Assembly: GCA_963971285.1 (NCBI GenBank)
Contig: OZ020257.1
Coordinates: forward strand, 14,088,602-14,152,601
Direction: 5' to 3'
Origin: Astropecten irregularis
Taxonomy: Eukaryota; Echinodermata; Asteroidea; Paxillosida; Astropectinidae
Length of the DNA: 64,000 bases
This document shows, piece after piece, positions 5,435 through 46,311 of the stretch. Each line of letters opens with the position of its first letter. The stretch's first letter is position 1. The notes beneath the pieces are model-generated. The model had not been told where the DNA came from. It made no database searches and saw nothing but the letters and a program-made list of their open reading frames with translations. The translations under genes were made by a program, and so were the position numbers.

Positions 5435-5677
5435 ATGGCGAGAGGCTGGACCCGTTTCGCTACCGACGCTCCGTGCCTTAAGACCCTGGTCCTCCTCCTT
5501 GGCGTTTTCCTGGTCGTTTCATCCATCGCTTCAGCGGCTGATGGATTCCCAGATGACGTGATCAGGCGACTGAAGGAGGAGATTCGACAAAAGGGACGCC
5601 AGAATCGCGACTTTGACGAAGGCGAGGAGGGAATCATCACCATGAATATGCTCATTCAAGACTCGGCTCAGAAAACG
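5435..5677 (+). CDS. Exon 1 of the PAL paralogue: signal peptide and start of PHM-like region
   Basis: This exon encodes 81 residues. A basic start (MARGWTR) is followed by a hydrophobic core (LVLLLGVFLVVSS) and a likely cleavage site around ASA/AD. Next comes a charged helix-like segment rich in K, R and E, then ITMNMLIQ, which matches the place where PHM has its first beta strand. The donor is acg|gtaaaa, phase 0. The next exon is 13 kb downstream. Confidence 0.8.
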
Positions 5678-17600: not shown

Positions 17601-20600
17601 TCCAAGGTGGGGCCAAGGTGCTTATTTTGACGGATCGAATTAAAAGAAAAATGTTAGGTTTAAAGGTACTATCACATTTGGTGGCATACTGAAGCATGAT
17701 CTTGGCAGATTTACCTATAACTAATACAGGGTATAAAGATAGCAATGGTAGAAATATAACGATAATTTGTTACAGGCTGAGATGATGTATTTATCCAGAA
17801 AAGAGTAAACCAATGGCCAAACACTCGCGGTTTATTTGATATCTCCAGGTAAAACAGTTACTGTGTAATTATCAAAATGCAATTACACAATTCCCATGAA
17901 GAAAATACTACCTAATTAAAATGTACAATAGCCTTTGTTATAACATTTGAAAGAGCCCATTAATTGGTTACTGGGTACCTCGTGTGCTTGTAGGACCATA
18001 GAGCCAGGTTTGGCACACTAGGCATCATTGTCTTTCACTTGTCAAGAAGAGGACGAAAACCAAAACAAAAACGGCACAGGGGTCGATTTCACGAAGCCCT
18101 ACGATCGATCGTAACTCCAGTTACGACGGATAACTTCCATCGTATCCTAAGTAGGGCTGCAAAGCATCATAACTCATACGATTGATAGTAAGTTACGATG
18201 AGTTTGGTGAAATCGATCCCAGGATGTATACGATCCTGAATCAAAGTTAGAGAGGGATCGAATGATAACAGGAATGACTGGGATCTATTTGGTATAGTCA
18301 TTCTCATTGGCTTATCCAGCTGAGGCTACAAATATTGCAACAGAAATCATTAGGAGTGCAGGACTGGGCCATACACTCCTGAAGTAAAACAAGCAATGCA
18401 ATCTCTTGTATTTTGAATGTTTAAACATAATATAATATAATAACATATAATATTATATACGCTTTGTGGTACGCCCGTGACTATGGGCTTGTTTGTTTCG
18501 CACATGAGATCCGTGATCTGCAGATCCACGTCCCATGCAGGATACACTAAAATGGGATCTTGATCAGCAGGATCACTGATCTTGTGCATGAAATAAACAG
18601 ACCATTATACGGTACCATTAGGTTCACAAAATGCAATCATTCTCAATGGCAATAACAATTTTAACTGGTTTCATTCTTTCCACCAGGGGGGCGTTTCGGA
18701 AGAGACTGAATTTTCCTGTTTAAACAGACGCGTATCGGATGAAGACGGCGAAATCCACATAGGTAAGACATAATACAATCTAATCATCAACCTCGTTCCC
18801 TTAGGTTTGGAACTCGTCCATACCTCACTCACACCCTGGTTATATCACACACTAATTGACAGCCAATTAGAAACATTACTTCAATGACGTCACTGTGCAT
18901 GTATACTTCTCCATGAGATTATGCAGAGTGAAGGGTGATGACAGAAAAACCCTTTCTCCCCGTTGATAGTTCAGCTGATTTGAGGGTTGTAGATGCCTGA
19001 TGAATCTCATTAAACCATGGTGAATTGGGTATTAATACACCTTGTCAGTGCCACCGTAACACGCGATGAATCCCCCGGGCCGAGCTGACCTTTTCCCCCG
19101 CTAGCATACCGGCGCGATTACCGGCAAAAGATGTATGTTTCTCGGAATCCCAATCATTAACGGAAGCTGGTAGCACGCTCCGGTAATTCAGCGTATATAC
19201 AATCTTTCAAAATTACATTTTGTTCAGTTGGAACCCATTATCGGAATCTCAAAACGGAAATTACCATCATTTCATGTATACAATATAAGCATGTCAAGTG
19301 ACGTGTGTGAATTAACATTTATTGGTAATTAGGCCCGCTGCAATTTATTTAAAGCTCCACGACTTGTAAAACCGTGTACTTCGCTATATACCTTCTGGGT
19401 TCTGTCTCCCCATTCACAAAAATGTCGACTCAAGATTTAAGTCTTCAGCTCTTACGGTACGATATCTAGGTCTCCTTAATACTGAATCTACAACTTGCCA
19501 GTGAAATAAAACAGAAACAGATTCCAGCGCAATTCCCAATCCTGGCAGATACGATTAATTTAGTGGATTCGTTCAAAATGCCGAAAGCCATCAAAGGCAA
19601 AGCCAACAAAACAACCGATACTTAGAGATGATAACAATGAAGAGGAAAGTGAAAAGAAGAACAGAAAAGACTTTAAGACGGGCAGACATTCAAAACTATG
19701 GAGGAATCATGCTTAAGTTCATCTTGACGTTCACAGATGTCTTAAAAGAGTTAATGAAACTTCGATAAAGACTAGGATATGTAGAAAGGAAAGAGGACAA
19801 GAATTTGGTGGCGATTTACCTCGACAGGGTTCGATTTCACGAAGCCCTACGATCGATCGTAACTCAAGTTACGAAGGATAATCCATCGTATCCTACGCAG
19901 GCCAGCAATGCACCATGCATAACCCTACGATTGATAGCAAGTTACGATGAGTTTGGTGAAATCGACCCCGAGATACACTGCAGTGTGGTTGACATTTATG
20001 TTAATAAAAAGCTATATACCAATGCACAGAGGGGCAATGACGCCAGACGCCTAAAGGGACACATTTTCCCCCACTTCTCGTGCTGAACTCCTTTCAAGAC
20101 AAACCTCGATATGGCATCTTGCTATACTGAGTTCTAACAATACATTTCTGTTCTGTTTCCTTTCCCCACGCAGTTGGTTTTAAGCCCGAACCCCGTGATG
20201 ACAGCGTCGATAAGATTGTTCTGTACGGATGCCCGCAGATGGCAACTGGTGAACCAGAGAAGTAAGAACGAACTTCTTCAAAGTCACACGATGTCGTGTT
20301 GCTGGTATAGCGACGTATCGGCTGATGGATGGAACTTAGCCTTCATCAGGCAACTGCAAGAACTGATGCTGCGGTGTCCGTTAAGTTCTTCAGTTGACTG
20401 ATGAAGGCTAGCTGTCGCCAGCAGCTGAAACGTCGCTACCAGCAACACGACATAACGCGTGACATTGATCACCTTTATTCCTTATCTGTATTTACCTCGA
20501 TGAATAACCCTTTCCTTTGTGAAACATATCTTCATCACATAATAGGACAGTTTATATCAACAATTAAAGACATTTTCTGATGAGGACTAGAGCAGGCTAG

Positions 20601-23600
20601 TCGAAACGTTGAGACCTTAATTGCGAACGAAATAGAAGTGCGAAAGTACGAACAATTCTTACATGGTATTTCCGCAAACCGATCCACATAAAGACAGTTT
20701 CTATTAATGAATAATTATAATTTGGCAAACGGCCATCTGCTTCAAAATTTAGGCCCAGTGATGACCTGTATTTTCAGTTCGTTGACCACTTTCAATAATC
20801 CCATAGACGTGCGCCCTCTATTTATAGTTTTCGAAATACATGTATAACTCTATGATTATTCCATGTCTTGGAAACAGCACGTGTATAAGCGGGTGCCTTG
20901 GTCCGTCTGTCGTGATCTACGAGTGGGTACGAGACGGGTGTCCAGACTACCTTACCAAAGGGGAAACGGTGACAGTTGGCGGGGATTTCCTCATCCACGA
21001 GTTGGTATTGGAGGTACAACACAAGAAAGGTAATTTTTGATATCACAGCATGCAGACGACCTAGCCAAAAAAGGCCGCGAAAACAAAATTGACGTTTTTA
21101 CCAAATCTATATACGGAATGAAATATAAACTATATATAAATATTTCTGAGTTCCAATTTTAACAAAATAAATTATCATCAAATGACCACAAGAGAAACTG
21201 ACTGAATTAAAAATAAATGAAAATAAATCATCGATACAAGTAATAAACTTCGATGAATTAGCCTTCCATGAAGATCCTGCTAGGATCGAAACGCTTCAGA
21301 CCCTCCTAACTCCAAGCGAAAGAAAATGACTGAGAACGGTATGTTACTCACCCTAATAAAGAAGTTTGTTCCCTTTCCATAGGCTCGGAGGTCTCATCGG
21401 GGATAACTCTGAAGATTCTACCGGAGTCTCGTGTGCGGTAAGTTTGAATTCTGATACAAATCGACAAAAAAGTAACATAAAAACAAGGTCATTCATTTCT
21501 AAAACATAGGAATGGTCCTACTTAGCACAAACATTTGCTAACCATGATATTTAAAAATGAAAACATAATTAAAAGCAGAATTTCCATATGTTGTGTATCA
21601 CTTGTGATTGTTCTTCAGGCTGTTGTTCGCTGACTATGAATATCAAATGGAATTTTTAATGGTGGCTTGTTTCATTAGGCAAGATATTTTTTGTGTTGAG
21701 CAATTTTTTGTGCTTAGCAGATCTATGAAATTGGCCCCAATTTTCATCAAGGAAATTATTCCCGATGGTGAAGTCATTGATTTTCAGCATCAGTATAACC
21801 AGTCTAGCTGCCTACCACGCTATCGGGAATCTATCATGTGATAGCCTAGTGCCATGTTTTCTGATATGATTTGTGGATTGAGGATTTCATTGGAATTATT
21901 TTCGCAGCTCCGATACCACGGTTGCAAAGTTGATGGCCTACTACAACAGCCAGCCTGGTTTCAAGGCTTGCGATGACAGCAGCAGTAGCAGCAGCAGCAG
22001 TGCTAGCTCATCCCTTGGCTCATCCTTGTCTGCCGAGGAACAACCGGACAAGGAGACACCAGAGAACGCCATCTATCCCAAGAAGGTCAGGGAGAGTTTC
22101 AGAAAAGCTCAACAGTAATACTGAGTTCAACATTTCAAAAACAAACTGTCTCTTTCATACAAAATAATGTTTGACAAATACAACGTTTAAAGGTAATTCC
22201 ATAATTTGCCAAAGAAATGCAGATTAATCGGCAAAATATCAAGTAAGATGCAGTAACAGTCATCTGTAAAATTCTTAGTCCCATACGGTTCCCACCTTTT
22301 GACAAAACAGTCAAAACGCCCACGGCATTTTAAAATCTGTTCACAGAATTTTTAATCCGAAGATCAAAATTGTTTTTGGTCAAGTGGTTTTACTTTTTTC
22401 TTGAAAAGTACAGCATTTCAGGCAGAAACATTTTAACGGTATCTTTCTATACTTTCTACCATGACATACCCTGTAACTTATAGGTAAATCTGTGGAGATG
22501 AATGTTTCGGTATCCCATCAAAGTATGATGTATCTTTAAAGTCAGCCAACCAGTGTACCCATTATTACTGCAAAAATGCGAATAAGGGGAGAACACAGGA
22601 AATGAATATTCATAAGATCTGAAAGTGACAACCCAATGAAAACATCTTAAAGCAGACGCAAGTACGGCCGTGTACAATCGTGGAACCAGCTGGGGTCGAT
22701 TTCACCAAACTCATCGTTACTCCCTATCACTCGTAGGAATCGTAGGATAGGTCCCCTACGATGGATTATCCTTCGTAACTTGAGTTACGATGGATCGTAG
22801 GGGTTCATAAAATCGACGCCTGAACTTTTGTGAAAGTCGATGTTTTATAACATAATTTAAAAATGTAGGCCGCATTAGGAGGAACTTAATAATGTGTAAT
22901 TGCTATAATTATACAAGCAAAAGTTCCAAAAAACATTTCTTCAGACAGAGGATTTATTCATCCAACTTCTGACAGGGCTTATTTTATTGTCTCCCATGGA
23001 CAGGCTTACCTAGGTGACTACCGGTATGTACGGGCCTTTCCCCCGCCAGCCGAGAACGCTGCCAACGGCCTGGAGGCCGAGGAATGGTGGCCAAGAGAGA
23101 ATATCCTCATGGGTCAAGTGGCCGGAGTGGCTACCGATCAGCATGGGTTGGTCTACGCCTTCCAACGGGGGGAGAGACGCTGGCTTCCCAGGTATGACTT
23201 GAAAGTATACCCTTAAATTAAGGGATATGTCTGATGTTTTCTGTCGTAAAAGCAGGGCGCCTGCACGCTTTATCTTGTATACAAAACCTTTCTTCACGGT
23301 GCTCGCGCGACGTCGTAAGCGTTCTAAAAGCAACAACATAGGGGCCTTATACTTTAATTCTGAAACGCTCTATCAACTTTACATCTGGCCAACATTGCTT
23401 TGTGTTCTTAAATGCTAGTGTTAACTTATTATACATTTATAAAGCTTGCTTCTTTCTAAAACAGGCTATGTGAATTGTGAACAAGTTCCTGTTTGATAAA
23501 AGAAACTCTTCCACTTTGGTCGAAAAGTCATACCACTTAGCGACAATTTTGTAAGTTTTTACGATTGCAAACTCAAAGCCACGCCTCCTTTATTATATGC

Positions 23601-26600
23601 AGCGATTTTGACGACGATCACGTGTTCAAGAAGAAAAAGCACCCTATCCGAAATGACGTAGTTCTGATGATGGATCCACACAGTGGATACGTGCTGGACT
23701 CCTGGGGAGGAGGCAGGTAAGGTCCCGAAGCCAGACTATCAAAGTTTTTTCATTGCAGGTTTTGGCGCCAAAATCCAAGCGGTGACGGCAAAAACACTCA
23801 TTGTATAAGTCACTGACATTTAACAACCGAACCGCAATGACTGCAAATCAGTAACTTTTGATAAGAAAGGGTTCTGTTAGCTCAAACAGAAGAGGCCAAT
23901 AATTCTTAAAAGCATTTCGAAGATTTTTTGTTGAATTAACTCTCCACCAACAGTTACATCAACTTCACTACAAGCGATACATCTAACAAACAAAATAATT
24001 GGCACTCTTATATAAAACAAATGCGTAGGTTGGCTCATAGTCGAGATAAGAGCTTTACAAATACATGGAGTGCATTTTATAGTGGGACTTGTAATACACA
24101 CATTGCATAGCAATTTTAAAATGTTCGGGCAAAACATATCCTTGCAAAATATTTACAGTTTATTCCTAAAGCAAGTACTGCATAGAAACAAATCACGAAC
24201 GTTTGTCACCAGGCAACGTATCCAAAAATTAATTTGTCCGAATAATATACTCGCTATATCAAAGCCCAACACTTTTGTGTGATATCGTTTGTCATTTGTA
24301 GCCAATATTTACCATAATAAATATTTTACCATTCTTTAGATTAATAGAAGATATTTTGTAATAGACCAGCTAAGGCCAGTTTAATGGGGCTTTTAAACAC
24401 AAACAATTGCTTAGCACAAAATGCCTTGCTCAATAAAACAAACCACCATTAAAAATTCCATTTGATATTCATGGTCACCAAACAACAGCCAAAGAACAAT
24501 CACAAGTGATACACAACACATGGACATTTTGTTGTTAATCCTGTTTTTGAGATAGACATGTCATGGTTAGCAAATTAGTGTGCTAAGCAGGGCCGTGAAA
24601 TTTTCCCCAGGTCAAAACAGGGTTTTTTTTCTAACAATACACAATGAAATTCTTTTTTCATATATTTGGTACGTAATCTCACAACGCCTACCTGTTATCT
24701 CATTGATTTCAGGTTTTACATGCCCCACGGAATCACCATTGACCATGCCGGCAATATGTGGCTGACCGATGTTGCCCTGCACCAAGTCTTCAAGTTTCCG
24801 CCCGGAAGCATGAAGCCAAGTCTGACCCTCGGTAAACGATTCCAGCCAGGCTCAGACTGGAAACACTTCTGCCAGCCTACCGACGTGGCCGTGGACAGCA
24901 AGACCGGCAACTTCTTCGTTGCTGACGGGTGAGAAATGAGACAATTTTTGAAGGAATACGGAAAGAGTTCTGCACGGTGAAAAAATGCTGCGTCGCGTTT
25001 GAGAAACACGTTGTGAATTTGCTGCCACCAAGAGCTCTGATACAGCATCATTATTGCTCAATAGAGGGCGCTTCGGGATGCCATATTTGGGGGCTCAGCC
25101 CTCTTCAGCCTATTTCAATCTAATCCCATTCATCATTTTTTTAAGAGGCTTGCTACTTTTCTAGTGTTAAATCAAAAATGCACGAATACATTGGGACCTA
25201 AGGCCTCCATATTAAAATGTATACCAAAACAAACAATTCAAAAATTGAATACATTTAAAAGCATTAGTTTCGTGACTTTGTCTTATATGAAACAAAGTAT
25301 CAATGGACATTCTTGTGAATTTCTTTTCTTTATCAGGTATTGCAACAGTCGGGTGTTGAAGTTTGCTCCAAACGGCTCTGTCTTGATGGAGATAACAGCG
25401 CCCTCAAGTTAGTATACCAGCAACAAAAGTCATCAATGAAACTGGTCAATAAAATCATTATTCATTTCATGTCTGAGGTTTTCAACGACGCTAGGGCGTT
25501 TGTGGGCCCTTAACTGAGAGACTTTGTCACATGTTGATGAGTAACCTTCTTAAAGGCACTACGTGTATCATAGGCCTACTTTGGTAGCCATACCGAAACA
25601 GAAATCATCACAGATTTACATATAATTTACAGGGTATAAAGATGGTGATGTTAGAAACAAACCATTAAAATGTTTCTGCCTGAAGTGCTGTATTTATCCA
25701 GAAAAGAGTAAATCCAATGACAAAAAGCAATTTTGAACTTCGGAAGATCAAAAAACCTGTAAAAAGGTTTTAAAAGTACCGTGGGCGTTTTTCACAGTTT
25801 CCGTGGGCAAAAAGTGGGCACCGTATGGGACTAGGAATTCCACAGATGACTGTCACTGTATCTTTGTGGCCATGAATCTGCATAACTTTAAACGAAAGTA
25901 TGAAATTACCTTCAAGAATGATTTTCCTCCGTCCAGGCCCTGACCAGCCCGAGGACCTACGTACCTTCGACATCCCCCACAGTCTGGCCCTTGCCGAGAA
26001 GCGTCAGCTGCTCTGCGTAGCTGACAGGGAACACGGCCGTATCGTCTGCTTCAACAGCACAACGGGCGAGTACGACAGGCAGATCTACAGCGAAGACTTC
26101 GGTGGCAGAGTCTTTGCCATAGCCTATGACGAAGCAGAAGGTGGGTCGATTTGGGGTAGAGATGCAAAACGTTTTGTTTCCGTTTTCTTTGTTTTAAACG
26201 TCATTCACCTAGATACCCTAACTGGAGCTGTGGATAAAGTTAGGAAAACCGGAGTCTGAAGCTAAATTGCTGCACTTTTGCCTGACTCACCCACCACTTT
26301 GGCCCCAACTTTGAGACTTTGTTCTTGCTCTGCCAGGACACAAGCTTCATCAGACATAAACAAGGAAGAAATCCTACGTCGTCTATAAGACATACTAGGC
26401 CTATAATGCAAATGTTCATAGGGATTCGAAAGGCCAATCCATTGATACCCTTTCGATAAGTTAGACCATTCTTAATTCTTTTTCTGAGTCACTAGATAAG
26501 TCAATTCCAGTGTTGTGTACATGGCATGGCAGGGGGAGTTAGTACCATTAGGTCCTCATGTGTACATGGCTCTGGCATAAGTGAGCAGACAAGAAGATGT

Positions 26601-27379
26601 TGCATGGTCTGCTCCTCTCCACACGTGCAGCTGGTGTCTTCAGTGTCTTTTTTGGCACCTGGGGGTATAGGGCCTCCTTGTGGCTTGTTTATGTGGACCA
26701 TAATGAGGTGGGTTGGGGAGGTATTCAGCCCACAGTTAGACCCTAAGAAGGAGGAAGTGTCGGGGGAGTGTACCACGCCCATCTGTTTGCTCCTTCTCAT
26801 TACCTTCTTCTATAACCTGTTCCTTCTTGCTTTGCAGACGTGCTGTATGCAGTCAACGGGCTAACGGATGACGAGTACTACCCTCCTCAGGGCTTCACTA
26901 TTGACCTGGATAGTGGTAGAATCCTATCCAAATGGAATCGCCCACCAAGTGATGAGGAGGTAAACAAAACAACCACATTCTTCGTCATTTTAAGACAAAA
27001 GTCCTAGTCATTTTAAGAACAAATATAAATTACTATTAGGGACACCACCAACATATGGCTGGATAGCTCAGTTGGTAATATTCGAATCCCGCTCCCGTCA
27101 ATTTTTCTTTGTTCACTTATCAATGACAACAGTTTTCAAGAATGATTCAATTTATTCTACTACTGTACTTGAAAAAAAGGGACAGCCGGTCTTCAGACCC
27201 TTATATAAATATTGTCACCGTTTTTCATCCTTTTCCAGCAATTGATTGAGCCTCATGATCTTGCCGTCTACTCGGGAGCCGTATACGTGGCCGATGTTGG
27301 AGCAAACCGAGTCTGGAAGTTCTGGGACGAGGCTACTCCTAGCAACGAAGTATGGGAGAACCAACCCTGGAAACAATAG
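5435..27379 (+). CDS. Secreted PAM paralogue: degenerate PHM-like region fused to PAL (13 exons)
   Basis: Exons: 5435-5677, 18687-18762, 20174-20261, 20878-21029, 21383-21437, 21908-22085, 23004-23191, 23603-23716, 24713-24928, 25337-25407, 25937-26140, 26838-26959, 27239-27379. All junctions are GT/AG and keep frame, giving 615 residues. ATG 5435 has a strong context (A at -3, G at +4); ATG 5408 is in frame and would add nine residues. Residues 1-35 look like a signal peptide ending near SIASA. Residues ~55-255 resemble PHM but lack its copper ligands: the His pair is replaced by D119-K120. A Ser run in exon 6 forms the linker. Residues ~265-615 are PAL, with the zinc-site histidines at H370 (MPHG), H475 (IPHS) and H575 (EPHD), R319, and Y438 in GYCNSR. 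No C-terminal membrane segment is present. By family knowledge PAL cleaves peptidyl-alpha-hydroxyglycine to an amidated peptide plus glyoxylate in the secretory pathway. I infer a soluble lyase without hydroxylase activity. Confidence 0.88.
6858..7240. mobile_element. ~370-bp inverted-repeat element
   Basis: The copy runs from ttttaagggcatat to cgtttacctt, with the palindromic centre gatcttcggaagatcaaaaa and the block 'tatttatccagagaagagtaaaac' shared with other copies. The ends are diverged. Confidence 0.65.
7594..7800. repeat. Fragment of the 27648-28027 element
   Basis: The stretch 'aaagggagcatgtatagaatttgcaaggcctcc' through 'cagttcgtaaacagtgcaaacagtcaccatggg' is nearly the same as 27650-27830. 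The right end is missing here. The two copies share a short open frame, which is a repeat property rather than a gene. Confidence 0.7.
8064..8430. mobile_element. ~370-bp inverted-repeat element, near complete
   Basis: It starts ttaaaggtactatcatactt and ends aagtatgacctttaa, so the termini are inverted. The centre has the palindrome gatctttcgagatcaaaa. Ordered family blocks include acaatttcgcgtaa, gatcaattgagctgaaaa and cacaggtttgttt. No open frame is shared between copies, which fits a non-autonomous DNA transposon. Confidence 0.8.
8632..8717. mobile_element. Short perfect-type hairpin
   Basis: The arm 'ttgccttatcgcaat...ctatattgt' pairs with 'acaatatag...attgcgataaggaa' around a short centre. 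This looks like a small palindromic MITE or its remnant. Confidence 0.6.
8734..8973. mobile_element. Inverted-repeat element with GGGCCAATTTCATAGAGC ends
   Basis: The left end gggccaatttcatagagctg is matched by the right end cagctctatgaaattggcc. Related pieces occur near 21680-21740, 24400-24600, 50860-50885 and 60238-60542. The open frame across this stretch changes between copies and is not a gene. Confidence 0.7.
9187..9413. mobile_element. Inverted-repeat element with GGGCCTTTAC ends
   Basis: The left end gggcctttaccaaat followed by ggcttgaggctaggcttgg is mirrored by ccaagcctagcctcaagcc ... cgtaaaggtcc. The inner arms gaaatgaagggc and gcccttcatttc-like text also pair. A lone left end occurs at 47901-47931. 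Confidence 0.75.
10467..10842. mobile_element. ~370-bp inverted-repeat element, 'cagattcatgggc' subtype
   Basis: The left half has tttggtttttgtcaaagaaatgc and a cccatatggtgcc block. The right half has atttcaggcgaacaaatttt and ends caaagtataatagcacctt. This subtype shares its right half with the other copies but has a different left half. Confidence 0.75.
12045..12424. mobile_element. ~370-bp inverted-repeat element, near complete
   Basis: It begins tttaaggtactatcatacat and ends aaagtatgaaagtaccttt, with the core gatctccgagatcaaaacc and the block acaatttcgcgtaacaattg. It is closely related to 8064-8430. Confidence 0.8.
13046..13190. mobile_element. Palindromic GATCGATTTCA element
   Basis: The ends (gatcgatttcataaagcc and ggtaaaatcgaccc) are inverted and the interior carries tacgatcgatcgtaactc. 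Sister copies lie at 871-990 (partial), 18079-18220, 19827-19969, 22692-22820 and 40889-41028. Confidence 0.75.
15604..15722. mobile_element. Palindromic GGGCCTGTTTGTTTC element
   Basis: Left end gggcctgtttgtttcaggca; right end tgaaaacaggccc. The inner arms 'gcgatcagcgatcctg' and 'aactgatcgcg' pair. Copies with the same plan are at 18485-18603 and 62843-62955. Confidence 0.7.
15857..16216. mobile_element. ~370-bp inverted-repeat element, 'aggtacagtacagg' subtype
   Basis: This copy has the family block acgtataactttcagggtat, the core gatctcggggctaaagatc, and a right end 'gacctgtaccaatcat...acctttaac'. It matches 55518-55885 most closely. Confidence 0.7.
18079..18220. mobile_element. Palindromic GGGTCGATTTCAC element
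   Basis: It begins ggggtcgatttcacgaagcc and ends ggtgaaatcgatccc. The interior holds tacgatcgatcgtaactcc and its diverged inverse. This is a near-complete copy in intron 1 of the PAL paralogue. Confidence 0.8.
18485..18603. mobile_element. Palindromic GGGCTTGTTTGTTTC element
   Basis: Left end gcttgtttgtttcgcaca; right end tgtgcatgaaataaacag... The interior contains gggatcttgatcagcaggatc. It lies 83 bp before exon 2 of the PAL paralogue. Confidence 0.65.
19827..19969. mobile_element. Palindromic GGGTCGATTTCAC element
   Basis: It begins gggttcgatttcacgaagcc and ends ggtgaaatcgacccc, in the intron between exons 2 and 3. It closely resembles 18079-18220. Confidence 0.8.
20285..20520. repeat. 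Inverted pair of hammerhead-like motifs with shared 3' tail
   Basis: On the + strand, CTGATGA at 20398-20404 is followed by a stem-loop (AGCTG...CAGCT) and GAAAC at 20427-20431. The mirror copy on the - strand (20292-20351) has CTGATGA and GATAC. The tail at 20475-20520 (tgaataaccctttcctt) recurs at 44065-44105 and 60025-60065. The order CTGATGA, stem II, GAAAC is the hammerhead ribozyme core. Self-cleavage is inferred, not shown. Confidence 0.5.
20577..20620 (+). ncRNA. Hammerhead-ribozyme-like motif (intron 3)
   Basis: CTGATGA at 20577-20583 is followed by a six-pair stem (GACTAG/CTAGTC) closed by agcagg, and then GAAAC at 20603-20607. These are the conserved core strands of a hammerhead with stem II between them; one extra G sits at the base of stem II. 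A diverged copy lies on the - strand at 49240-49290, where GAAAC is AAAAC. Stem III and the cleavage site are not clear. Confidence 0.5.
21266..21320 (+). repeat. Degenerate hammerhead-like repeat
   Basis: A stem atcctgctaggat is followed by CGAAACG and the tail ccctcctaactccaagc. The leading CTGATGA is decayed to CCATGAA. The same tail and stem occur at 49840-49960 and, more diverged, at 6245-6290 and 44840-44910. Confidence 0.45.
21541..21740. repeat. Transposon fragment, inverted copy at 24400-24600
   Basis: The text from 'ttgtgtatcacttgtgattgttctt' to 'tgctta' matches the reverse complement of 24400-24600. An open frame starting at 21608 runs through it, but the matching copy shows it is repeat DNA. 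It sits in intron 5. Confidence 0.65.
22186..22539. mobile_element. ~370-bp inverted-repeat element
   Basis: Starts tttaaaggtaattccataat, ends aaagtatgatgtatctttaa. The left half has the agaaatgcagatt...ggcaaaatatcaag subtype and the right half has cagcatttcaggcagaaac. It lies in intron 6 of the PAL paralogue. Confidence 0.75.
22692..22820. mobile_element. Palindromic GGGTCGATTTCAC element
   Basis: Begins ggggtcgatttcaccaaac and ends ttcataaaatcgacgcc, in inverted orientation compared with 18079-18220. It lies in intron 6. Confidence 0.75.
24400..24600. repeat. Transposon fragment in intron 8
   Basis: This is the reverse-complement partner of 21541-21740. The end tgctaagcag also matches the 8734-8973 family. 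No coding signal is present. Confidence 0.6.
25550..25913. mobile_element. ~370-bp inverted-repeat element abutting exon 11
   Basis: It begins cttaaaggcact and ends gaaagtatgaaattacctt. The core is gaacttcggaagatcaaaa. The right end lies only 23 bp before the exon 11 acceptor at 25935-25936, so the polypyrimidine tract sits directly against the element. Confidence 0.75.
26501..26800 (-). pseudogene. LINE ORF2 C-terminal fragment
   Basis: The - strand frame reads CTCGEEQTMQHLLVC, then MPEPCTHEDL. This is the Cys/His tail found after the reverse transcriptase domain in many non-LTR retrotransposons. Nothing upstream of it resembles a reverse transcriptase, so it is a 5'-truncated insertion in intron 11 of the PAL paralogue, antisense to that gene. 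Confidence 0.65.
27057..27125 (+). repeat. tRNA-derived SINE fragment
   Basis: An A-box-like ggctggatagctcagttggta is joined directly to the B-box side (ttcgaatcccgctcc) and to the shared tail (caatttttctttgttcac). Internal bases are deleted compared with 45500-45602. Confidence 0.65.
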
Positions 27380-32524: not shown

Positions 32525-33256
32525 TTAATTTAGAACGCAAGATTCGTAAGTAGGTACCATGTACTTGATGTTGATGAAGGCGTCCGGACCACCGTGTTTC
32601 TCAAGAAGTTCAAGGGTGGAGTTGATCAGATCACCCATGTTCTCTCGCTTGCGCTGGTTGTACTCGATGCGGTCACCGAGGTTCTTGTTGCAGTTCTTGA
32701 AGAGCTGGAGGACGGGGAGAATCTGACGATAGTACGGCACCAAGGCCTGTCCCACCAGTTCATTGGAGTGGACAAGAGCTTGTAAGATTTTCAACGTGAC
32801 GCATATTATCTAGGAAGAATGAATAGGAATGAAGATGAATTCAAAATGAATTGTCAAATTTGTTGGAAGTATCAGTATTACGTATTGTCTGTCTGGGTTT
32901 TTGTCTTGCTGCTGCTGCTGCATGTTGCTGCTGCTGCATGTTGCTGATGAGTGCTGCTGCTCGTGTTGCTGCTGCTTGCTGTACGGTTGTTGCTGCTGTT
33001 GCTGCTGAGTGCTGCTGCTGTTCCTTCTACTGTTGCTTGCTGATCGTGTTGCTGCTGCTTGCTGTTGTTGTTGCTGTTGCTGTTGTTGCTGCTGAGTGCT
33101 GCTGCTGTTGCTTCTGCCGTTGCTGCTGCTGCTGCTTGCCCATGATGCTTCTGCTGTTGCCGCTGCTTGCCGCTGTTGCTGCTGCTGTTGTTGCTGTTGT
33201 TGCTGCTGTTGTTGCTGTTGTTGCTGTTGCTGCTGTTGCTGCTGCTGCTGCTGTTG

Positions 33257-33295
<39 letters not shown>

Positions 33296-35851
33296 CTGCT
33301 GTTGCTGCTGCTGCTGTTGCTGCTGCTGTTACTGTTACTACCGGTACTGCTGTTGCTGCTGCAACTGCCGCGCTAATGCAACTTCTGCTGCATGCCAGTG
33401 CTTCTGCTCTTGCTTACCTCTGGGTTTCGTGTCTGCAGTGCTTTCTTGATAGGCAAGATAAGCTGTGGAATGACTGGTACTACTTTGTGTCCTCCTTGAG
33501 ACAACATGTCTAAGATCCCTTGACGGGCAAAGAAACTGTATGGAAACTGCGTCTCAGAGAGTCCATCGAAGAACAGTGGCAAGTAATGGTGGTAGTCCAG
33601 CTTCGCAATGTCCACCTGGTGAAGAGTGAATGAAGGACACAGGGACGGTTATGCATAAATCAGAGTGTACACTGTCAACAATTTCGGTAACATTTTCGGT
33701 AACATGTTGTCCAGTTAGGCCAACACACCTGGGCAACACTTTGGGCCTGTGTACACCAGCAACATTTGGCCAACATGCTACCGAGATGTTGCTGCGACAT
33801 GTTACCCAACATTTTCAGCAACAAGGTATACCTGGGCAACATTTTACCGAGATAGTTACCGAAAATGTTGACAGTGTAGGTCTACATTCTGCTTATAGCA
33901 TAAGTCATCTCAGTTTTAGAATCTGCTCGTCGATTAATAATGAATAAGAAACAAAAGAAAGCGAATCAATATCAAATGTGACTGACATTTGGGGGAATTA
34001 TTAAGCTTATTAGGACGACAAATTACACAGAGTTGTTTGTTTCATATATAAACCATGTCTGCTGCCACCACGAGGCCAAAAGTCTCCATTATTTTAATAT
34101 TATTTGGAATGGGTCATTAGGGAGACTTTCCCATAGGGTCGTGCACAAACTTTACTTACCTATTTCTAAACACCCTCCAAACCAATGAACTTGAAATTGA
34201 CATATGTTCATATTGAGAGCATTTTCTGTCTTCTATAAAATTATGAGCAGTAAAAATGTCCTTAAAAGGTAGCTGGTATAATAGGGAGACACCGAAAAGC
34301 CTCCCTATTTGCAGATGTCTCTAAAATGTTTACTTTTAGACTCTAAAGTGTCTCCCTAATATGCAATTTAGACTATTATCATAACCCTCGGTGTTAATAA
34401 TTATATTCAGTGCCTGTCAAGCGCTTACTGATGGTGATTTTCGACGTCTCATTGCTGCCTGCAAATTGGACATTATTTCCAACTCACTGGGTTGTAACTG
34501 AACTGGCGCCTAGCCTGTCATGTTGCAATAAATATAAAGCTATTTCAAGCTGCAGACCATTGACGAGCCTCTTGTGATGTGTGATTGCTCATTATTTGGC
34601 TACGACTTATGACCACACGCTTGTCCTATAGCGAGTGGCTGCCCCGTAGACCTATGGGGAATTGCAAGCCGTAGACCCAGTAATTCAGAATTGTTCAGGA
34701 TTTTTAATACAGATGCTTTTAACATTTCTCTGAAAGGCATAATTGGTAAAGGTCACAGAACAGTACTCACACTTTGTCTGATCCATCATACACATGAAAT
34801 GATAAACTTGTGAAAATAGCGAGAACCCGACTAAATTGTGTCTTATAAAACATAAAGAATGCTTTTGATCTTGCCCTGAGATCAAAACTGTTTTTGGTCT
34901 TTGTTTTACTAATTTCTGGACAAATAAATTTTAAAGGTATATTTTCTACCAGCAACATCTTCATACCCTGACATTTATACGTTAATCTGTGAACATTTCT
35001 ATTCGGGTATGTTACTAATCCTGTGCTGTACCTTTAAAAGCAAACACGGATATTCGTCCATAATACCACGTTTTAATTGTTTTGCCTGGTAGCAGACATC
35101 AGATTCTTTTTTTGACTGGCGTAGTATGATAAGCACAAATTAATACAAATAATGATATGGCCTACCCTTTACATTTGTTCATTACCACTAAGAGGTTGGT
35201 GATACTTTTGTACATACAGCAATGTCAGCACAACAAAGATGAACATCAAAGATGATGCAGCATCATACATTTTCATTACTTTACCTTCCATAAGATTTTG
35301 TTATTTTTAGAGTCATGGTCCACGGCGATTGGGAAGTCTCCTCTCTCGTAGAAGAATCTGAACTCCGATGGAGGCGTTGGTCGGACGTGGAAGGCCCCGG
35401 CCACCGGGGGACATTTCACCTTGATGTGAGGGTCCTGTCTGAGGGACAATACGGAGAAAGGGTTCACTGTGATCGTCTTGGTAGCGGTCTTGCCTCTCAG
35501 GAGTGGTCGAGGGGTGATGGACGGGGGTCTCAGGTGCACCGGTGGGAGGCTTGTGTTATTAGGCCTACCCTTCCGAACACGAGTCTTGTTCTGCTGACTG
35601 GCATCCGATCGAGCTCCCGGTGAATATTGGCCGCGGCACCCATTCTTCTCACCGCTGTTGCCGCTGCTGTTGCTGCTGCTGCCTTGGCTCCGGAGATGGT
35701 GATGGTGAAGATTAGGCCCGCCATCTTTCGTGGCCCGGCGAGCGAGGAATATCTTATCACGATGGCCTCGGTCGCGGGATGATGCCTGTTGGGGGACCGT
35801 GTGGCCTTTTATCGGCTTAGAAACACCAGATGACACAGCAGCGCTTATCAT
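32525..35851 (-). CDS. PACRG: PACRG, ciliary microtubule inner protein (3 exons)
   Basis: Exons in transcript order: 35851-35285, 33615-33418, 32809-32525. All junctions are GT/AG and phase 0, giving 349 residues. The PACRG core is clear: [16 protein letters not shown], then [65 protein letters not shown] and [14 protein letters not shown], ending CVLN as in other animals. Family knowledge: PACRG is an alpha-helical repeat protein that sits with FAP20 at the inner junction of axonemal doublet microtubules and is needed for motile cilia and sperm. The N-terminal ~140 residues are low-complexity (H, S, N, K and R rich) and longer than in mammals. The first in-frame ATG at 35851 was taken as start. 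In vertebrates PACRG lies head to head with parkin; I see no parkin exon upstream here. Confidence 0.93.
32905..33375. repeat. CTG/CAG trinucleotide-rich tract in last PACRG intron
   Basis: About 470 bases are mostly ctg, ttg and tgc triplets on the + strand, which gives CAG/CAA in the PACRG transcript. The last intron is only 608 bp (32810-33417), so the tract fills most of it. It opens all frames on the + strand as poly-Leu, poly-Cys or poly-Ala, and these are artefacts. Interruptions (ttg, atg, cttctac) suggest an old, imperfect repeat with a purer section at 33170-33350. Confidence 0.9.
33666..33880. mobile_element. Inverted-repeat element in PACRG intron 1
   Basis: Left end gtacactgtcaacaatttcg plus gtaacattttcggtaac; right end gttaccgaaaatgttgacagtgtag. 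The middle also has paired blocks around ggccaacac/ggccaacatg. ~215 bp, non-coding. Confidence 0.7.
34741..35037. mobile_element. ~370-bp inverted-repeat element, shortened
   Basis: Family blocks ggtaaaggtcacagaacagtac, tttgtctgatcc, the core gatcttgccctgagatcaaa and a right end ...tgtgctgtacctttaa are present. It appears to have lost about 70 bases internally. It lies in PACRG intron 1. Confidence 0.65.
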
Positions 35852-36752
35852 CGTGACGAGCCGGATTCAAGAGACTAATAATTGTTGATGCACGGCGAAT
35901 ATTCTGATGAGATGCTCTTAAAAGGAAGCAAGAATGGAGAAAAGAAGATTGCACAAGTCTTAAGACGCTGCTCATCACTAATTCACATTTGCCATCACCA
36001 ACAGCCTGACCAACCATTCGTATACACGATAATGCATTCACCGCACGTTCCCTTAGCTGTCGCCCCAAGAATCACATCTGAGATATAGGTCACTTCTTCT
36101 TTGCATATGTAAGTTGCCACATACGGTACATGTTGGGATACGTAATGGACTCACCGCATACCCCATGTAGGATGCCTGATACAGTGATAGCGACGACATT
36201 CAGCAAGCTGCATTGCAAATCACGGCCCTCACTGAATTAAAACATTTTTTATTAAATCACGGTTGCACCGGTTGCTGTTTTTGCTGAGGCAGTCCTTAGA
36301 AACGACCTTGCTAGAGCATTTTCTAATTTCCCCAGCCCTGAAATATTGGCCTTCTTTAAAGCAATACCCTTGTTTTCGTTTCTTGTTATTTTAATACCTG
36401 TCTTACGGTTGGTTGACAAATATTAAATTAAATTTTCCCAATTTTACAAGGAAAATTCAATACCGAGTTCTGAAAAGATCTATTTTTATTTTGGTATGGA
36501 AAATGAATCATAATGGCCTTAACCTTTAACTACTAGCAGACTAAGATTACATTTCCATATGCTGTACATTTCACGGTATAGTGGTAATCCATAAGTCTAC
36601 TTATGTACCAGTCTACTGATTAATTCAGCTAAAACCATTAGGCCACTCGAAAGCGCAGGCCTGATTTTTAATTCTATTAAACGGAGTAGAATCTCATTCT
36701 ACTTTACAGTAATATTCAATTGCTCTGGGGTAGTATAGCCACACTGTAGCCC

Positions 36753-40888: not shown

Positions 40889-41028
40889 GGGGTCGATTTC
40901 ACGAAGCCCTACGATTGATCGTAACTCGAGATACCAAGGATACCCATCGTATCCTACCTAGAATTGCAATGCATCACAAGTCCTACGATTGATAGTAAGT
41001 TACTATAAGTTTGGTGAAATTGACCCCA
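40889..41028. mobile_element. Palindromic GGGTCGATTTCAC element
   Basis: Starts ggggtcgatttcacgaagcc and ends ggtgaaattgacccc. It lies in the likely 3' untranslated region of PAM, ~160 bases beyond the stop codon, so it could form a hairpin in the mRNA. Confidence 0.8.
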
Positions 41029-41187
41029 GGAATGTGGATGGCAGTGTGACCAAGGGGGTTTGGCTTGAATGATTTCCCCGCAATTCCCTGATGTTAATTT
41101 CCTCCTTCACCACATCCATCACTAAGAGGAAAAGGAAAAAAAAATTTTTTTCAGGATATTCAGATCTTTTCTCTTCAACTCTCATTC

Positions 41188-41597
41188 TCATAAATTCTGC
41201 GTTTTCTTTGAGTTCAGTATGCTGTACTCCTCCACGTCCGAGTCATCGCTCCATCCCATCCCTCCGTCGTGGTCCGAGTCCTCGGTGTTGACCTGATTGA
41301 AGCCCTTCCGCCGGTTGAAGAAGTTCCCCAGGCTGAACTTGTCCGTGGCCTTGTAGCCCGCTCGGATGGCCATGCCCGACTCGCTGCTGCGGAAGAAGCG
41401 CATGCGCCCCTGGGCGCGCAGCCGGACCACCACGGCCACCAGGAGCATGAGGAAGATCGGGACGGCTAGGACGGCTACGATGATGGCCGTGGTCGTCATG
41501 CTGGCATCTGTGGCTGCGTTTGGGAGGTGCTTAAGTCTCTCCTCCAGTCGTGGTTCGATCTGATTCTTTGTCTCGTCATCCATCAATTCATCAATTT
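41188..41597 (-). other. PAM transmembrane segment and cytosolic tail exon
   Basis: After a short charged stretch the exon encodes a hydrophobic helix ([20 protein letters not shown]) followed by basic residues and a ~75-residue tail. The tail has [19 protein letters not shown] and a late EEYS, which match conserved trafficking and phosphorylation segments of mammalian PAM. This supports a membrane-bound form that cycles through granules and endosomes. Confidence 0.85.
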
Positions 41598-44500
41598 CTA
41601 AAATAAAATGACAAACAAAAAATACTCCATCAAAATAATTTGGGAGGCTATTCATCCTTACTGGCAGCTTGGGTGCTGAATTATGAAGGATTGTGCTACA
41701 ATGTGACCGAGTTGCTGGCATTCATGGGCGCCCTTTGGCTGCCAGCCACATCAACCCATATATGATCACGGAGTACAGCCTGAGATTGAAAGTGTTTCAT
41801 TTTTGTGGAGGGAGGAAAAATGGAGAACCCGGAGAAAAACCCTCGTAGCATATGAGAGAACCAAACGCACAACTCTACTCACATATGACCCAAGTCGGGA
41901 TCGAACCCGGGCAACATTGGTGAGAGGCGAGTGCCAAACGCACTTGCCACCTATGCCCCCTAAACATCACAATACAACAAGCGTTTTCAATCATATTCAG
42001 TCTTGTCAATTATAAGAAGACCTCAGCAATGTAATGCTAAACCGTAATTTGGCTTTACTTTCTGTTAAAACAATCATGAAACGTGAAAAGAAATGGACAC
42101 TGTGATTTAATTTCCATACCAAGGTGTCTTTCAAATTTCCAGATTTTGTTGGGACCGATTTCTGCCACATAAACGTTCTTGGAGTCAGGAGAGGCTGCAA
42201 CGTCATGAGGTTGACCAAACTCCTACAAGAGGAAAAAAACCCAGGATCGATGAATAACGGAACAACTGTGACTTTCAGTATAATTCAAGATGAAAAACAC
42301 ATTCGTAACTTAATAGACCCTGGTTCAACCAACAAAGAAGCTGATAACAAGAACTGGGCAGGCAGAACTTACGGCATTGTGTGGCGACCACGTCTGCAAC
42401 AGCTTGCCAGAGTCAAAGTCCAACGTGAATCCCTGGACGGCCGGCCTCTTCATGCCACTACGGGATGACCCTGGGCCATTCACAGCATACAGAACACCTC
42501 CTGCAAGAAATTACACACAAAGAAAGGTGACTCAATGACAATGAGAGGTCAACGGCCAATCAATCAATCAGTAGGAGCATGCACCGCATTGTCGCATCTA
42601 CCTTCGGTCTTCTGATGGCCATCCCCCGGGCAGCCATGCAACCCTTCCCCATCTCAACAAAATAACGATCTATCTGACACAACCTCATGTCAGGCGGACA
42701 CCCTATGCGGGTCCTATACCAGTAGATTCTCACATAGAGAGAATCCGCCTGGCAGGATCGCTCCCAGGGAATCCCGCCACGTGACCGTGCAGTCACATGT
42801 GGCGCTCACGTATCAGGCAGGTAATAGGTCTCATCTGACTCTCCCTGAGTAACCTCTCATTAGACACACGGTCCGACCAGTGGTACCCAAGGATCCTCCT
42901 CAGAGACCCAGTACTGAAGACATTGAGTCGCAACCCCATGCCCCAAGTCGAAGTCCATGTCCCAGAACAGTCAACAATCACATACAAACATAGAATCATT
43001 CAAATAATAAAATCTTCGACAAGGTGCCTAACCTTTATAAGAGCTGTAGCTGATGGCAAAGAGCCGTGTGCCAAACTCCTCTGGTTGGTATTCACGTACA
43101 AATTCCCCCGATTCAGCTTCAAAGCATTGGATACGTCCGTTCTCCCTGTCGGCTACACACAGTTGTCGTTTGTTTGGGATGAAGGCCAGGCTGTGTGGGA
43201 TAGAGAAGGTACTGGGCTCTGGATTGACGGCTAGCTCCCTTCCTGGAAGACAACCAAAGCCAAAATTACGATTTAGAAACTGCTGTGCGTCAACTGAAAT
43301 GACTGGAATATACAAATGAAATACAAGATATTATCTCTCTTTTTTGAAAATGTGTGGCTCTGAATAGAGCCATTTGTTTTTTGTTAAATATGTTGTTCTC
43401 ACAGGTCGAAACCATCAAAGTCGTCATCCTCACCACCTTTATTTCTAAACTTTTTTATTTCTAAATGACTATTAAGAGAGACTGGCTGGTTGTGGTGAGG
43501 TTGTCTTTACCGATGTAAGAAGAAGCCTTCCCCCACTCCATGAGGTAATCACCAGTTGCAGAGAACTTTACGATCCGGCTGTTGCAGTACCCGTCGGCAA
43601 CAAAGATGTCTCCCGTCACAGGATCCACGGCTACGTCAGTGGGCTTGCAGAAGTGGTCCTTGTCACTACCGGGAGCCAGCTCCGTCCCTAGCGTCAGCAA
43701 GGGCGTGTCCCCGCCCCCTGGAGGGAACTTGAAGACCTGATGGAGGGCGACATCCGTCACCCAGACGTTGCCCTCGTGGTCGAGCGACAAACCGTGGGGC
43801 ATGAAGAACCTTGAAAAAGAAGCAGAATTTGAACCATGGTTGATTTTTTGAGTTGTTTTTTTTGGAGACCTTGCCTGACATTGGATCTTGATAACAGGAG
43901 GACTGTCACATGAATCCTGATAGCAGACTAGACAAGAATAACTACACAGGGTTTGGGCAAGGGTAGACTAGCAGTCTAAAGGTTGCCTGATGAAGATTAG
44001 CAGTTTCAGCAGCCGAAATGTCGCTACCAGCAACACAACATCGCGTGACTTTGATCACCCTCTTTATCCTATCTGTATCTCCCGAGATGAATAACCCTTT
44101 CCTTAATATTGGTAGTCTAACCGTTTCTTATAATATACTTCCCCACAGTTTATGCCTGTCTTGATTTTGTTGAAAACATGTTTTTAATACAGACAATGCA
44201 TCATTAGGTGCGTTCGAGTAGGTCACCTAGGTCGCTCCAAGTCAGCCCCCCGTACCGTTCGATTAGGTCTGACGTCATTCTCAGGGTTCACCCAAGGCAG
44301 CCACCAGTGACCCTGCTCGCGTGCAGAGTCAGTGGTGGGAAACACGTCACACGAATTCAAGATGGCGGAAAGGTATTAAGCAAGTGTTCGATTAGCCCGG
44401 CTGTGGTGGCTGATTCGGGTGACGTGACCCGTATTGACCGAGGGAAGCTTGAACTTGAACGCACCTCTTGCTCTAAAATGTAACAAAATGTTCAGACTTC

Positions 44501-46267
44501 CAATACTAAACTGAGTTTAATAAACCATGTGCAGATATGACACTCAAGACTCACAGGTTGGCACCCCACTGCCGTTTGATGCGACCAGTATCCTTGTCAA
44601 ACACCAGTATTGTGTTGTTTGTAATCCGGCCCAAGTCAGTCTTCATGAAACGGTTGTCTGTACTGAAAACCCTGCAAAGTGAACAATGGTGTACAATAAT
44701 GAAGACGAACAATCCATGTGTTAGCCGAATAATGAAATTAAATTTTTTATAGTGGATGCAAAGAGAGACATGAAAAACAGCGAAAGTCGAAACGATCAAA
44801 GTGACAGCCTTCCATATAATCCAAAATAATGACCAGACACATAAAATGCTCAGTGTTGGGAGGGGCCGACATTTCCATCCCAGCAGGATCTTTCTCAAAG
44901 GCTAAATATAGATTTGAATCAGGTCCTGCCAATACTGGGCATTGGTTATCGGGCCTTTTCAAAATGGAGGCTCAGACTCAGGCTCCATTTCGTGAATCCA
45001 TTCTAAAATAACGAGTATCAAAAAAGAGGCTTTTGGCTACGGTTCGGAAGTTGATTCTCTGGTTTGAAAAGAAAAAACAGAGCTTCAGCTTCGAAGAAAT
45101 ACCACAAGCTATATTTTCAGTGTATGGATGAAGGAGCTGGAGCCTGAGCCTGAGCCTCCATCTCGTAAAGCCCCACTGTCTGTACTTACCCTATTCCCCA
45201 AACCCTGTCAACCCGATGGAATATATGCACATCACCCTCGGAGTCTACAGCTACTCCAGCGACCTGACCAAGGGTCACATGATCACCCTGTGGCCAATCA
45301 TCAACCACGGAGAGATCTGGTAGGACAAGAAAGCGAGAATCAATTGTGGGTAACAGTACTTCACAACAAATGTTTGTGGACTGCAAAAGAATTCAGGTAA
45401 TGGAAATTATTGAAAGATGAACAAAGAAGCCATGGTTTCATGGCTTCTGACTGCCAAACGAACAAAGATAATTGACTATTGGGGTCACCACCAAGGTAGG
45501 GCTGGATGGCTCAGTTGGTAGAGCGCCTGTACAGTGTTCAGTAGGTCACCGGTTCAAATCCCATTCCAGTCAAATTTTTCGTTGTTCATCTTTCAATGAC
45601 TAAAAGATTCAGTCAGTTTCCCTTGTGGTTATTTGATGATTACTGGAAATTATGGCAGATATAGCAGCCAACTGAAAATTGAGTTGGATTTTGGCTATTT
45701 TCTCGTGACCAAGATGTCCGATTGAGTTCAAACATTTACATGTACATACTGGATCAGACAAAGTGTTGGTGCTATTCTGTGACCTTTACCAATCATGTAT
45801 TATACCTTTAAGCCTCAACTCTCCTTCAACTCACCTTCAGACTCTTCCTTTTCCTTTGACCCTTCATCAACACCACTGGTCTCAGTCTTAGCTGTTGACG
45901 TATCGCTGTTGACCGACGTCTTCCCGGGCGATGGTTTGGAGGTGGTCATGTCCTGCTCTTTTCCCTCTCCGGAATCCTGTTCACCGCGGTCATCATTCCC
46001 CTGGCCCAGGTCCCCGTACTTGCCCAGGAATTTATCCAGGATGTTTTGGTAATCGGGATCCTTGTTGTCATCAGTGTACCAGTTGTCATTGTCATTGTCA
46101 TTGTCATCGGTGTACCCGTAGAGGGACGGGTCAGTTTCGTAGCGAGGAGGCTCTGCCTGCTGGGTTGTGTCTTTGCTCATTGTGGGCGGATGTTGAGGAA
46201 CAATATCTGATCCTGTATGGTTAAAAACCAAACAAGTAAATACAACTCTTGGGCATTAACGAAACAG

Positions 46268-46311
<44 letters not shown>

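Follow-up and report, generated by a model that had tools for sequence, protein, structure and literature searches.

The 64,000-nucleotide stretch of Astropecten irregularis DNA analysed here, referred to as the window (bases 14088602-14152601 of contig C21, which spans 18.4 Mb in an assembly of 475.7 Mb and 168 contigs), carries two PAM genes. One, on the minus strand, is a canonical bifunctional and membrane-anchored PAM with all six copper ligands (6/6); the other, which lies 14 kb away on the plus strand in the opposite orientation and is hereafter called the duplicate, combines a degenerate PHM N-domain (PHMn) with a full PAL lyase. The duplicate is best explained, with a probability of about 0.6, as the gene for a soluble secreted PAL that carries a pseudo-PHMn retained for its fold and that goes back to an old duplicate of PAM. 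Its sequence supports a pseudo-hydroxylase region joined in a single frame to a predicted secreted, anchorless and competent lyase. The gene is real, old and well built, and its leftover PHMn is unusual.

Architecture and ancestry of the duplicate

The duplicate extends from an ATG at 5435 to a stop codon at 27379, and its 13 exons (Table 1) form a single open frame of 615 codons, with all 12 introns of the GT-AG type and with matching phases at the junctions. The protein runs from a signal peptide-like segment through the degenerate PHMn and a Ser-rich linker to the full PAL, with which it ends. An open frame leading through a pseudo-PHM into PAL had been described in a first-pass annotation of the window, and this frame is confirmed; the range then given to the feature, 18687-22085, takes in exons 2-6 only, since the gene starts at 5435. 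Intron 1 measures 13 kb, intron 5 measures 470 bases, and intron 6 measures 918 bases.

The hydropathy profile of the protein contains one segment above 2 (residues 17-35), the next-highest value being 0.83; in the canonical paralogue, which served as a control, the maximum of 3.28 lies in the membrane segment. With a signal-like segment, a PAL and, judged by hydropathy, no membrane anchor, the predicted product corresponds to the description of a monofunctional soluble PAL.

The two genes have much of their intron pattern in common. For 10 of its 12 introns, the duplicate has a canonical intron of identical phase at most five alignment columns away, a count given without its chance level, and four of these introns (2, 5, 7, and 8) occupy the identical column. 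Introns 6 and 9 have no canonical counterpart, and canonical intron 4 is missing from the duplicate. These shared positions and phases make descent from a bifunctional PAM the most likely origin of the duplicate.

Loss of the copper ligands and apparent loss of the PHM C-domain

The likeness of exons 2-5 to PHMn is evident in searches of known structures. When the peptide that they encode was compared by phmmer with 177,635 PDB sequences, 13 matches fell below E 1e-6, all of them PHM or PAM entries; these are 13 distinct sequences with E values of 1e-7 to 3.4e-7, rat PHM being matched at E 1e-7, and the next match has an E value of 0.15. The Pfam model of the PHM N-domain, PF01082, matches the duplicate at E 1.8e-4 and 22.1 bits, which is below its gathering cut-off of 30, so that the PHMn would probably go unnoticed in routine annotation and the gene be labelled a plain NHL/PAL protein. 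When 5000 sets of open stretches of matching length were drawn from the gene's own introns, exons 2-5 taken jointly scored higher in codon usage than all 5000, whether the measure was trained on the canonical gene together with the PAL exons or only on the canonical gene. These results argue for homology of the region to the PHM N-domain as covered by PF01082.

None of the three copper-A histidines (0/3) is retained in the alignment of this region, in which Asp, Lys, and Gln stand in their places. The C-domain (PHMc) was sought in several ways. Its Pfam model, PF03712, has no match in the duplicate protein up to E 1, nor any in the duplicate in a genome-wide search at E 0.001; of the five matches of that search, three belong to the canonical gene and the other two share a single place on contig C24, where the peptides presumably resemble dopamine beta-hydroxylase. 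Rat and canonical PHM were also used as tblastn queries, and of the matches above 21 bits the 30 best for each query were considered. Three canonical exons were recovered with rat PHMc, at E 3e-15 to 2e-7; on the duplicate this query had no match above 21 bits, and there the PHM queries find exons 3 and 4 and one weak stretch in intron 1. The rat queries missed the canonical exons at 59506-59560, 52597-52639, and 50084-50151, the last of which lies outside the queries. The weak stretch (9655-9879; canonical PHM query, 22.7 bits, E 0.65), which has internal stops, is taken as a chance match. Introns 5 and 6, inspected by eye, contain no PHMc-like open stretch of at least 25 residues. As a PHMc that had diverged as far as the PHMn would be at the edge of detection, the argument for its absence also uses the break at an intron, the small size of the introns, and the Pfam searches. 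In the canonical gene, an intron separates PHMn from PHMc; the end of exon 5 coincides with it in both alignment column and phase, and the loss of PHMc therefore looks exon-exact.

With PHMc, the protein appears to have lost copper B (HxH and Met) and the peptide-substrate site of PHM, which we take to lie in PHMc. As both the copper-A ligands and PHMc are gone, a working PHM and a PAL are not predicted to occur together in this polypeptide, as they would in a bifunctional PAM.

The core of the first-pass observation, namely the fold signature, the ligand loss, the open frame, and the PAL, therefore stands, and its alignment of the copper-B Met and the range that it gave do not. The N-domain signature peptides are found where it had placed them, in exon 3 (VGFKPEPRDDSVDKIVLYGC) and exon 4 (WVRDGCPDYLTKGE...LVLEVQHKKG), and the alignment contains both the change of HH to DK at codons 20209-20214 and the Gln in place of the third copper-A histidine. 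The copper-B Met had been aligned with Thr, for which there is no basis, as PHMc was not found and the Met has no counterpart to align with. The description of the PHM as shortened is correct but understates the reduction, since the whole PHMc was not found and only the N-terminal half is left. Peptide binding, one of the roles suggested for the pseudo-PHM, is no option via the PHM substrate site, because only the N-terminal half of PHM remains.

The PAL half

Residues 11-319 of the 329 residues of the rat PAL chain are aligned to the PAL of the duplicate at E 6e-80. The equivalents of H585, H690, H786, Y654, R706, and D787 are retained at what we take to be the zinc, tyrosine, and arginine positions of the enzyme, and the Arg of HRGD, to which we likewise ascribe a role, is also kept, as are the equivalents of Cys 634, 655, 702, and 713. 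Judged by its residues, the PAL half looks like an ordinary lyase and is predicted to be competent. The earlier description of a good PAL on a secreted lyase is supported by the match to rat PAL and the retained active-site residues, together with the signal-like segment and the lack of an anchor.

Possible constraint on the PHM N-domain

What has been kept in PHMn follows a pattern. The cysteines equivalent to rat C81, C114, C126, and C131, whose numbers and disulfide pairs are assumed here, are all present in the alignment (4/4). Among the columns at which rat and canonical PHMn are identical, the duplicate retains 11 of 18 Cys, Gly, Trp, or Pro residues and 9 of 38 other residues (Fisher p 0.008); these 56 columns are the 58 identical ones minus two that are gaps in the duplicate, and the three lost copper-A histidines are counted among the 38. 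Where both rat and canonical residues are hydrophobic, the duplicate is hydrophobic at 29 of 43 columns, compared with 8 of 57 where both are non-hydrophobic (p 4e-8), and none of 20000 permutations reaches 29. The retained residues fit a fold that has been kept while the metal site has gone. At the codon level, the numbers of first, second, and third positions shared by the duplicate and the canonical gene are 44, 64, and 30 of 112 in PHMn, the third being near chance, and 142, 169, and 94 of 228 in PAL. The contrast between codon positions supports, and does not prove, constraint on PHMn after the loss of the ligands.

The alternative that survives best, although it is tentative and clearly the less probable account, is that PHMn is a passive relic, which drifts and has stayed in frame only since stops or frameshifts would remove PAL, so that the product would be functionally a plain soluble PAL. 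Such drift would agree with the low identity of PHMn to the canonical gene (24 percent, vs 57 percent in PAL) and with saturated synonymous sites, owing to which a recent end of constraint on PHMn is not datable. It does not readily account for four of four cysteines and the hydrophobic pattern having outlasted all three copper ligands, or for second codon positions that agree about twice as often as third ones (64 vs 30 of 112).

Several points weigh against retention for the fold. PHMn has diverged far more than PAL: over the stretches compared (PHMn from EFSCLNRR to ILPESRVR; PAL from FYMPHG on, its first part excluded; gap columns uncounted), identity between the duplicate and the canonical gene is 27/112 in PHMn and 129/228 in PAL, identity between the canonical gene and rat is 58/117 and 125/229, and identity between the duplicate and rat is 33/112 and 113/223, respectively. 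The sequences had been aligned as proteins before codon positions were counted, and such an alignment is biased toward positions 1 and 2. On their own, exons 2 and 5 do not beat their other frames in codon usage. In PAL, rat M784 is replaced by Glu; yet the canonical gene also departs from rat here, with Gln. Finally, the downstream PAL in the same frame is sufficient to keep exons 1-6 open: because a frame break in these exons would also destroy PAL, the openness of PHMn is uninformative about its use, and the open frame and splice phases were rejected as proof of such use, since PAL alone would preserve both. It is the residue pattern that suggests a kept PHMn fold. The proposal in the first-pass annotation that the domain is kept for structure accordingly has indirect support in the four cysteines, the hydrophobic pattern, and the excess of second over third codon positions, and a passive relic also fits.

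The gene duplication is judged to be old because both regions have reached saturation at synonymous sites (pS 0.82 and 0.76); pairwise dN/dS was rejected for dating on account of the same saturation.

Alternative gene structures

It is improbable that the locus produces two transcripts, with the PAL exons served by their own promoter and first exon and with exons 1-6 dead or forming a separate unit. An alternative first exon could be concealed in intron 1 (13 kb) or intron 6 (0.9 kb), and scorpions and insects have monofunctional soluble PAL genes (PMC6669573). However, the phases match across the joins between PHMn, linker, and PAL exons, and the sole strongly hydrophobic, signal-like segment of the protein comes from exon 1.

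A fully active PAM, in which missed or alternative exons restore the copper ligands, is very unlikely and has already been largely refuted. Long introns give room for such exons in principle, and the weak canonical-PHM match in intron 1 has stops inside. Extra exons of this kind were looked for by tblastn, by inspection of introns 5 and 6, and with PF03712, and were not found in the duplicate, whereas the same rat PHMc query finds three canonical exons. An artefact of assembly or gene modelling that joined the exons of unrelated genes has no point in its favour and scarcely any credibility, given that intron positions and phases match bifunctional PAM on the PHMn side and the PAL side alike and that the window sits within an 18.4 Mb contig.

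Proposed function and relation to known systems

In the preferred reading, in which a soluble secreted PAL has retained a pseudo-PHMn for its fold, an old duplicate of a bifunctional PAM would have lost the PHMc exons, the membrane anchor, and all copper ligands while PAL stayed. Its product would be a soluble secreted lyase with a copper-free, disulfide-braced beta-sandwich derived from PHMn at its N-terminus. The PAL of the duplicate would cleave peptidyl-alpha-hydroxyglycine, which the canonical PAM encoded nearby would supply through its PHM half, to the amidated peptide and glyoxylate, and the duplicate would thereby add soluble lyase capacity in the secretory pathway or extracellularly. 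The pseudo-PHMn would most likely be a folding, sorting, or docking module, and it may be cleaved off in the linker, at the KK pair that closes exon 6. A more specific possibility, which we hold to be doubtful, is that the copper-free PHMn has become a dedicated module of the secreted lyase, for example one that docks the lyase to a peptide carrier or to the PHM half of the PAM encoded nearby. The hydroxylase step of amidation would then take place on an anchored protein and the lyase step on a soluble one bearing a pseudo-hydroxylase adaptor. If true and conserved across the lineage, this would be a case of a pseudoenzyme that acts as an adaptor in peptide amidation.

Apart from bifunctional PAM, the arrangement usually seen is a clean split into PHM and PAL. 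The duplicate represents an intermediate state, in which the hydroxylase function has gone with a whole domain and every ligand and half of the hydroxylase fold is still attached to the lyase. If relatives share the gene, it would provide a natural test of whether PHMn serves PAL beyond chemistry. The duplicate resembles rat PAM (PDB 5wm0, 1opm, and 3fvz) and the canonical paralogue in the order of PHMn followed by PAL, in the PHMn cysteines, and in the PAL active-site residues; the resemblance to the canonical paralogue extends to intron positions. It differs from bifunctional PAM in that no PHMc was found and in having no copper ligands and no transmembrane segment or tail.

PAM has been described as the sole enzyme that amidates secreted peptides, with PHM and PAL separate in insects (PMC6529398), and scorpions have a monofunctional soluble PAL alongside bifunctional PAM (PMC6669573). 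The duplicate is like scorpion PALm, a soluble PAL encoded apart from bifunctional PAM, and Drosophila PAL2, a soluble PAL with its own gene; these are reported to consist of a signal peptide and a catalytic domain (356-366 aa in scorpions; PMC6669573), whereas the duplicate adds PHMn and a Ser-rich linker to reach 615 aa. Four PHM domains and a single PAL make up the PAM of Lymnaea (cited in PMC6669573), likewise an invertebrate polypeptide with an odd ratio of PHM to PAL; however, its PHM is multiplied and processed to isoenzymes, while that of the duplicate is halved and dead. Because a coral skeleton proteome includes a PAM and a PAL sequence (PMC7853314), a role for a secreted PAL outside peptide hormones is conceivable. 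Among the matches listed in a literature search, no title or abstract opening concerned a PAL with a dead PHM, a pseudo-PHMn-PAL fusion, or an echinoderm PAL duplicate. A scan of viral contigs with the PHMn peptide found no relative; one stretch matched a pattern but does not encode one.

The canonical paralogue and other features of the window

Table 1. Positions of the two PAM genes, the exons of the duplicate, and other features in the window
Feature	Position	Strand	Description	Basis
Exon 1	5435..5677	+	ATG, putative signal peptide (TLVLLLGVFLVVSSIASAA), start of mature protein	Open frame, GT donor, phase 0; hydropathy 2.37, residues 17-35
Exon 2	18687..18762	+	Start of pseudo-PHMn; Cys equivalent to rat C81 present	Splice sites, phase, alignment
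Exon 3	20174..20261	+	VGFKPEP..IVLYGC, contains VGFKPEPRDDSVDKIVLYGC; DK for copper-A HH at 20209-20214; Cys equivalent to rat C114 present	Alignment, frame
Exon 4	20878..21029	+	CISGC..WVRDGCPDYLTKGE..VGG..LVLEVQHKKG; Gln for third copper-A His; Cys equivalents of rat C126 and C131 present	Alignment, frame
Exon 5	21383..21437	+	End of PHMn-like region; terminates at canonical PHMn/PHMc intron column and phase	Frame, intron comparison
Exon 6	21908..22085	+	Ser-rich linker, KK pair at its end; occupies place of canonical PHMc exons	Frame, intron comparison
Exon 7	23004..23191	+	Start of PAL (GQVAGVA, QRGERRW)	Frame, PAL homology
Exon 8	23603..23716	+	PAL	Frame, PAL homology
Exon 9	24713..24928	+	PAL; zinc His equivalent to rat H585 (FYMPHG); Cys equivalent to rat C634	Frame, homology, alignment
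Exon 10	25337..25407	+	PAL; Tyr equivalent to rat Y654 (GYCNSR); preceding intron absent from canonical gene	Frame, alignment, intron comparison
Exon 11	25937..26140	+	PAL; H690 and R706 equivalents	Frame, homology, alignment
Exon 12	26838..26959	+	PAL	Frame, PAL homology
Exon 13	27239..27379	+	PAL; H786/D787 equivalents, stop codon; no transmembrane segment	Frame, alignment
Three PACRG-like (ParcG) open reading frames	32525..35866	-	Between the two PAM genes; bounds of open reading frames, not of exons	Pfam PF10274 on 3/3 tested
Canonical bifunctional PAM (comparison gene)	41188..59560	-	17 exons; HHM, HYGD, HAH, DEM, PAL, transmembrane segment, cytosolic tail with YSIL	
Inverted-end element copies	18084-18222, 19832-19969, 22690-22815, 13059-13191, 876-986, 40894-41029			

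The likely first exon of the canonical PAM, chosen by motif out of three candidates, begins with a signal-like sequence, carries FMPGVIPQH ahead of a phase-0 donor, and ends about 970 bases outside the window. On the minus strand at 46941-47897, the canonical exon that carries the copper-B Met has its acceptor and its first 50 bases repeated, in five tandem copies at a spacing of 182-192. These 50 exon bases do not differ between the five copies, and 31 of 152 other columns vary (p 6e-5, with gap columns scored as variable and columns treated as independent). Read-through from any of the four upstream copies would yield a short, truncated terminus after 40-48 residues.

A short element with inverted ends (TCGATTTCAC...GTGAAATCGA), probably a non-autonomous DNA transposon, is present six times in the window, with four of the copies in introns of the duplicate. 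A long TGC-repeat array at 32907-33362 lies between two of the three PACRG-like open reading frames. The introns of the canonical PAM contain Rfam matches to histone 3' UTR stem-loops above the gathering score at 43332-43376 (minus strand) and 50299-50344 (plus strand), as well as tRNA matches at 45500-45572 (plus strand) and 48835-48895 (minus strand), which were not called by ARAGORN and are perhaps tRNA-derived repeats. A 21-base minisatellite of 39 copies occupies 57438-58225, within an intron of the canonical PAM.

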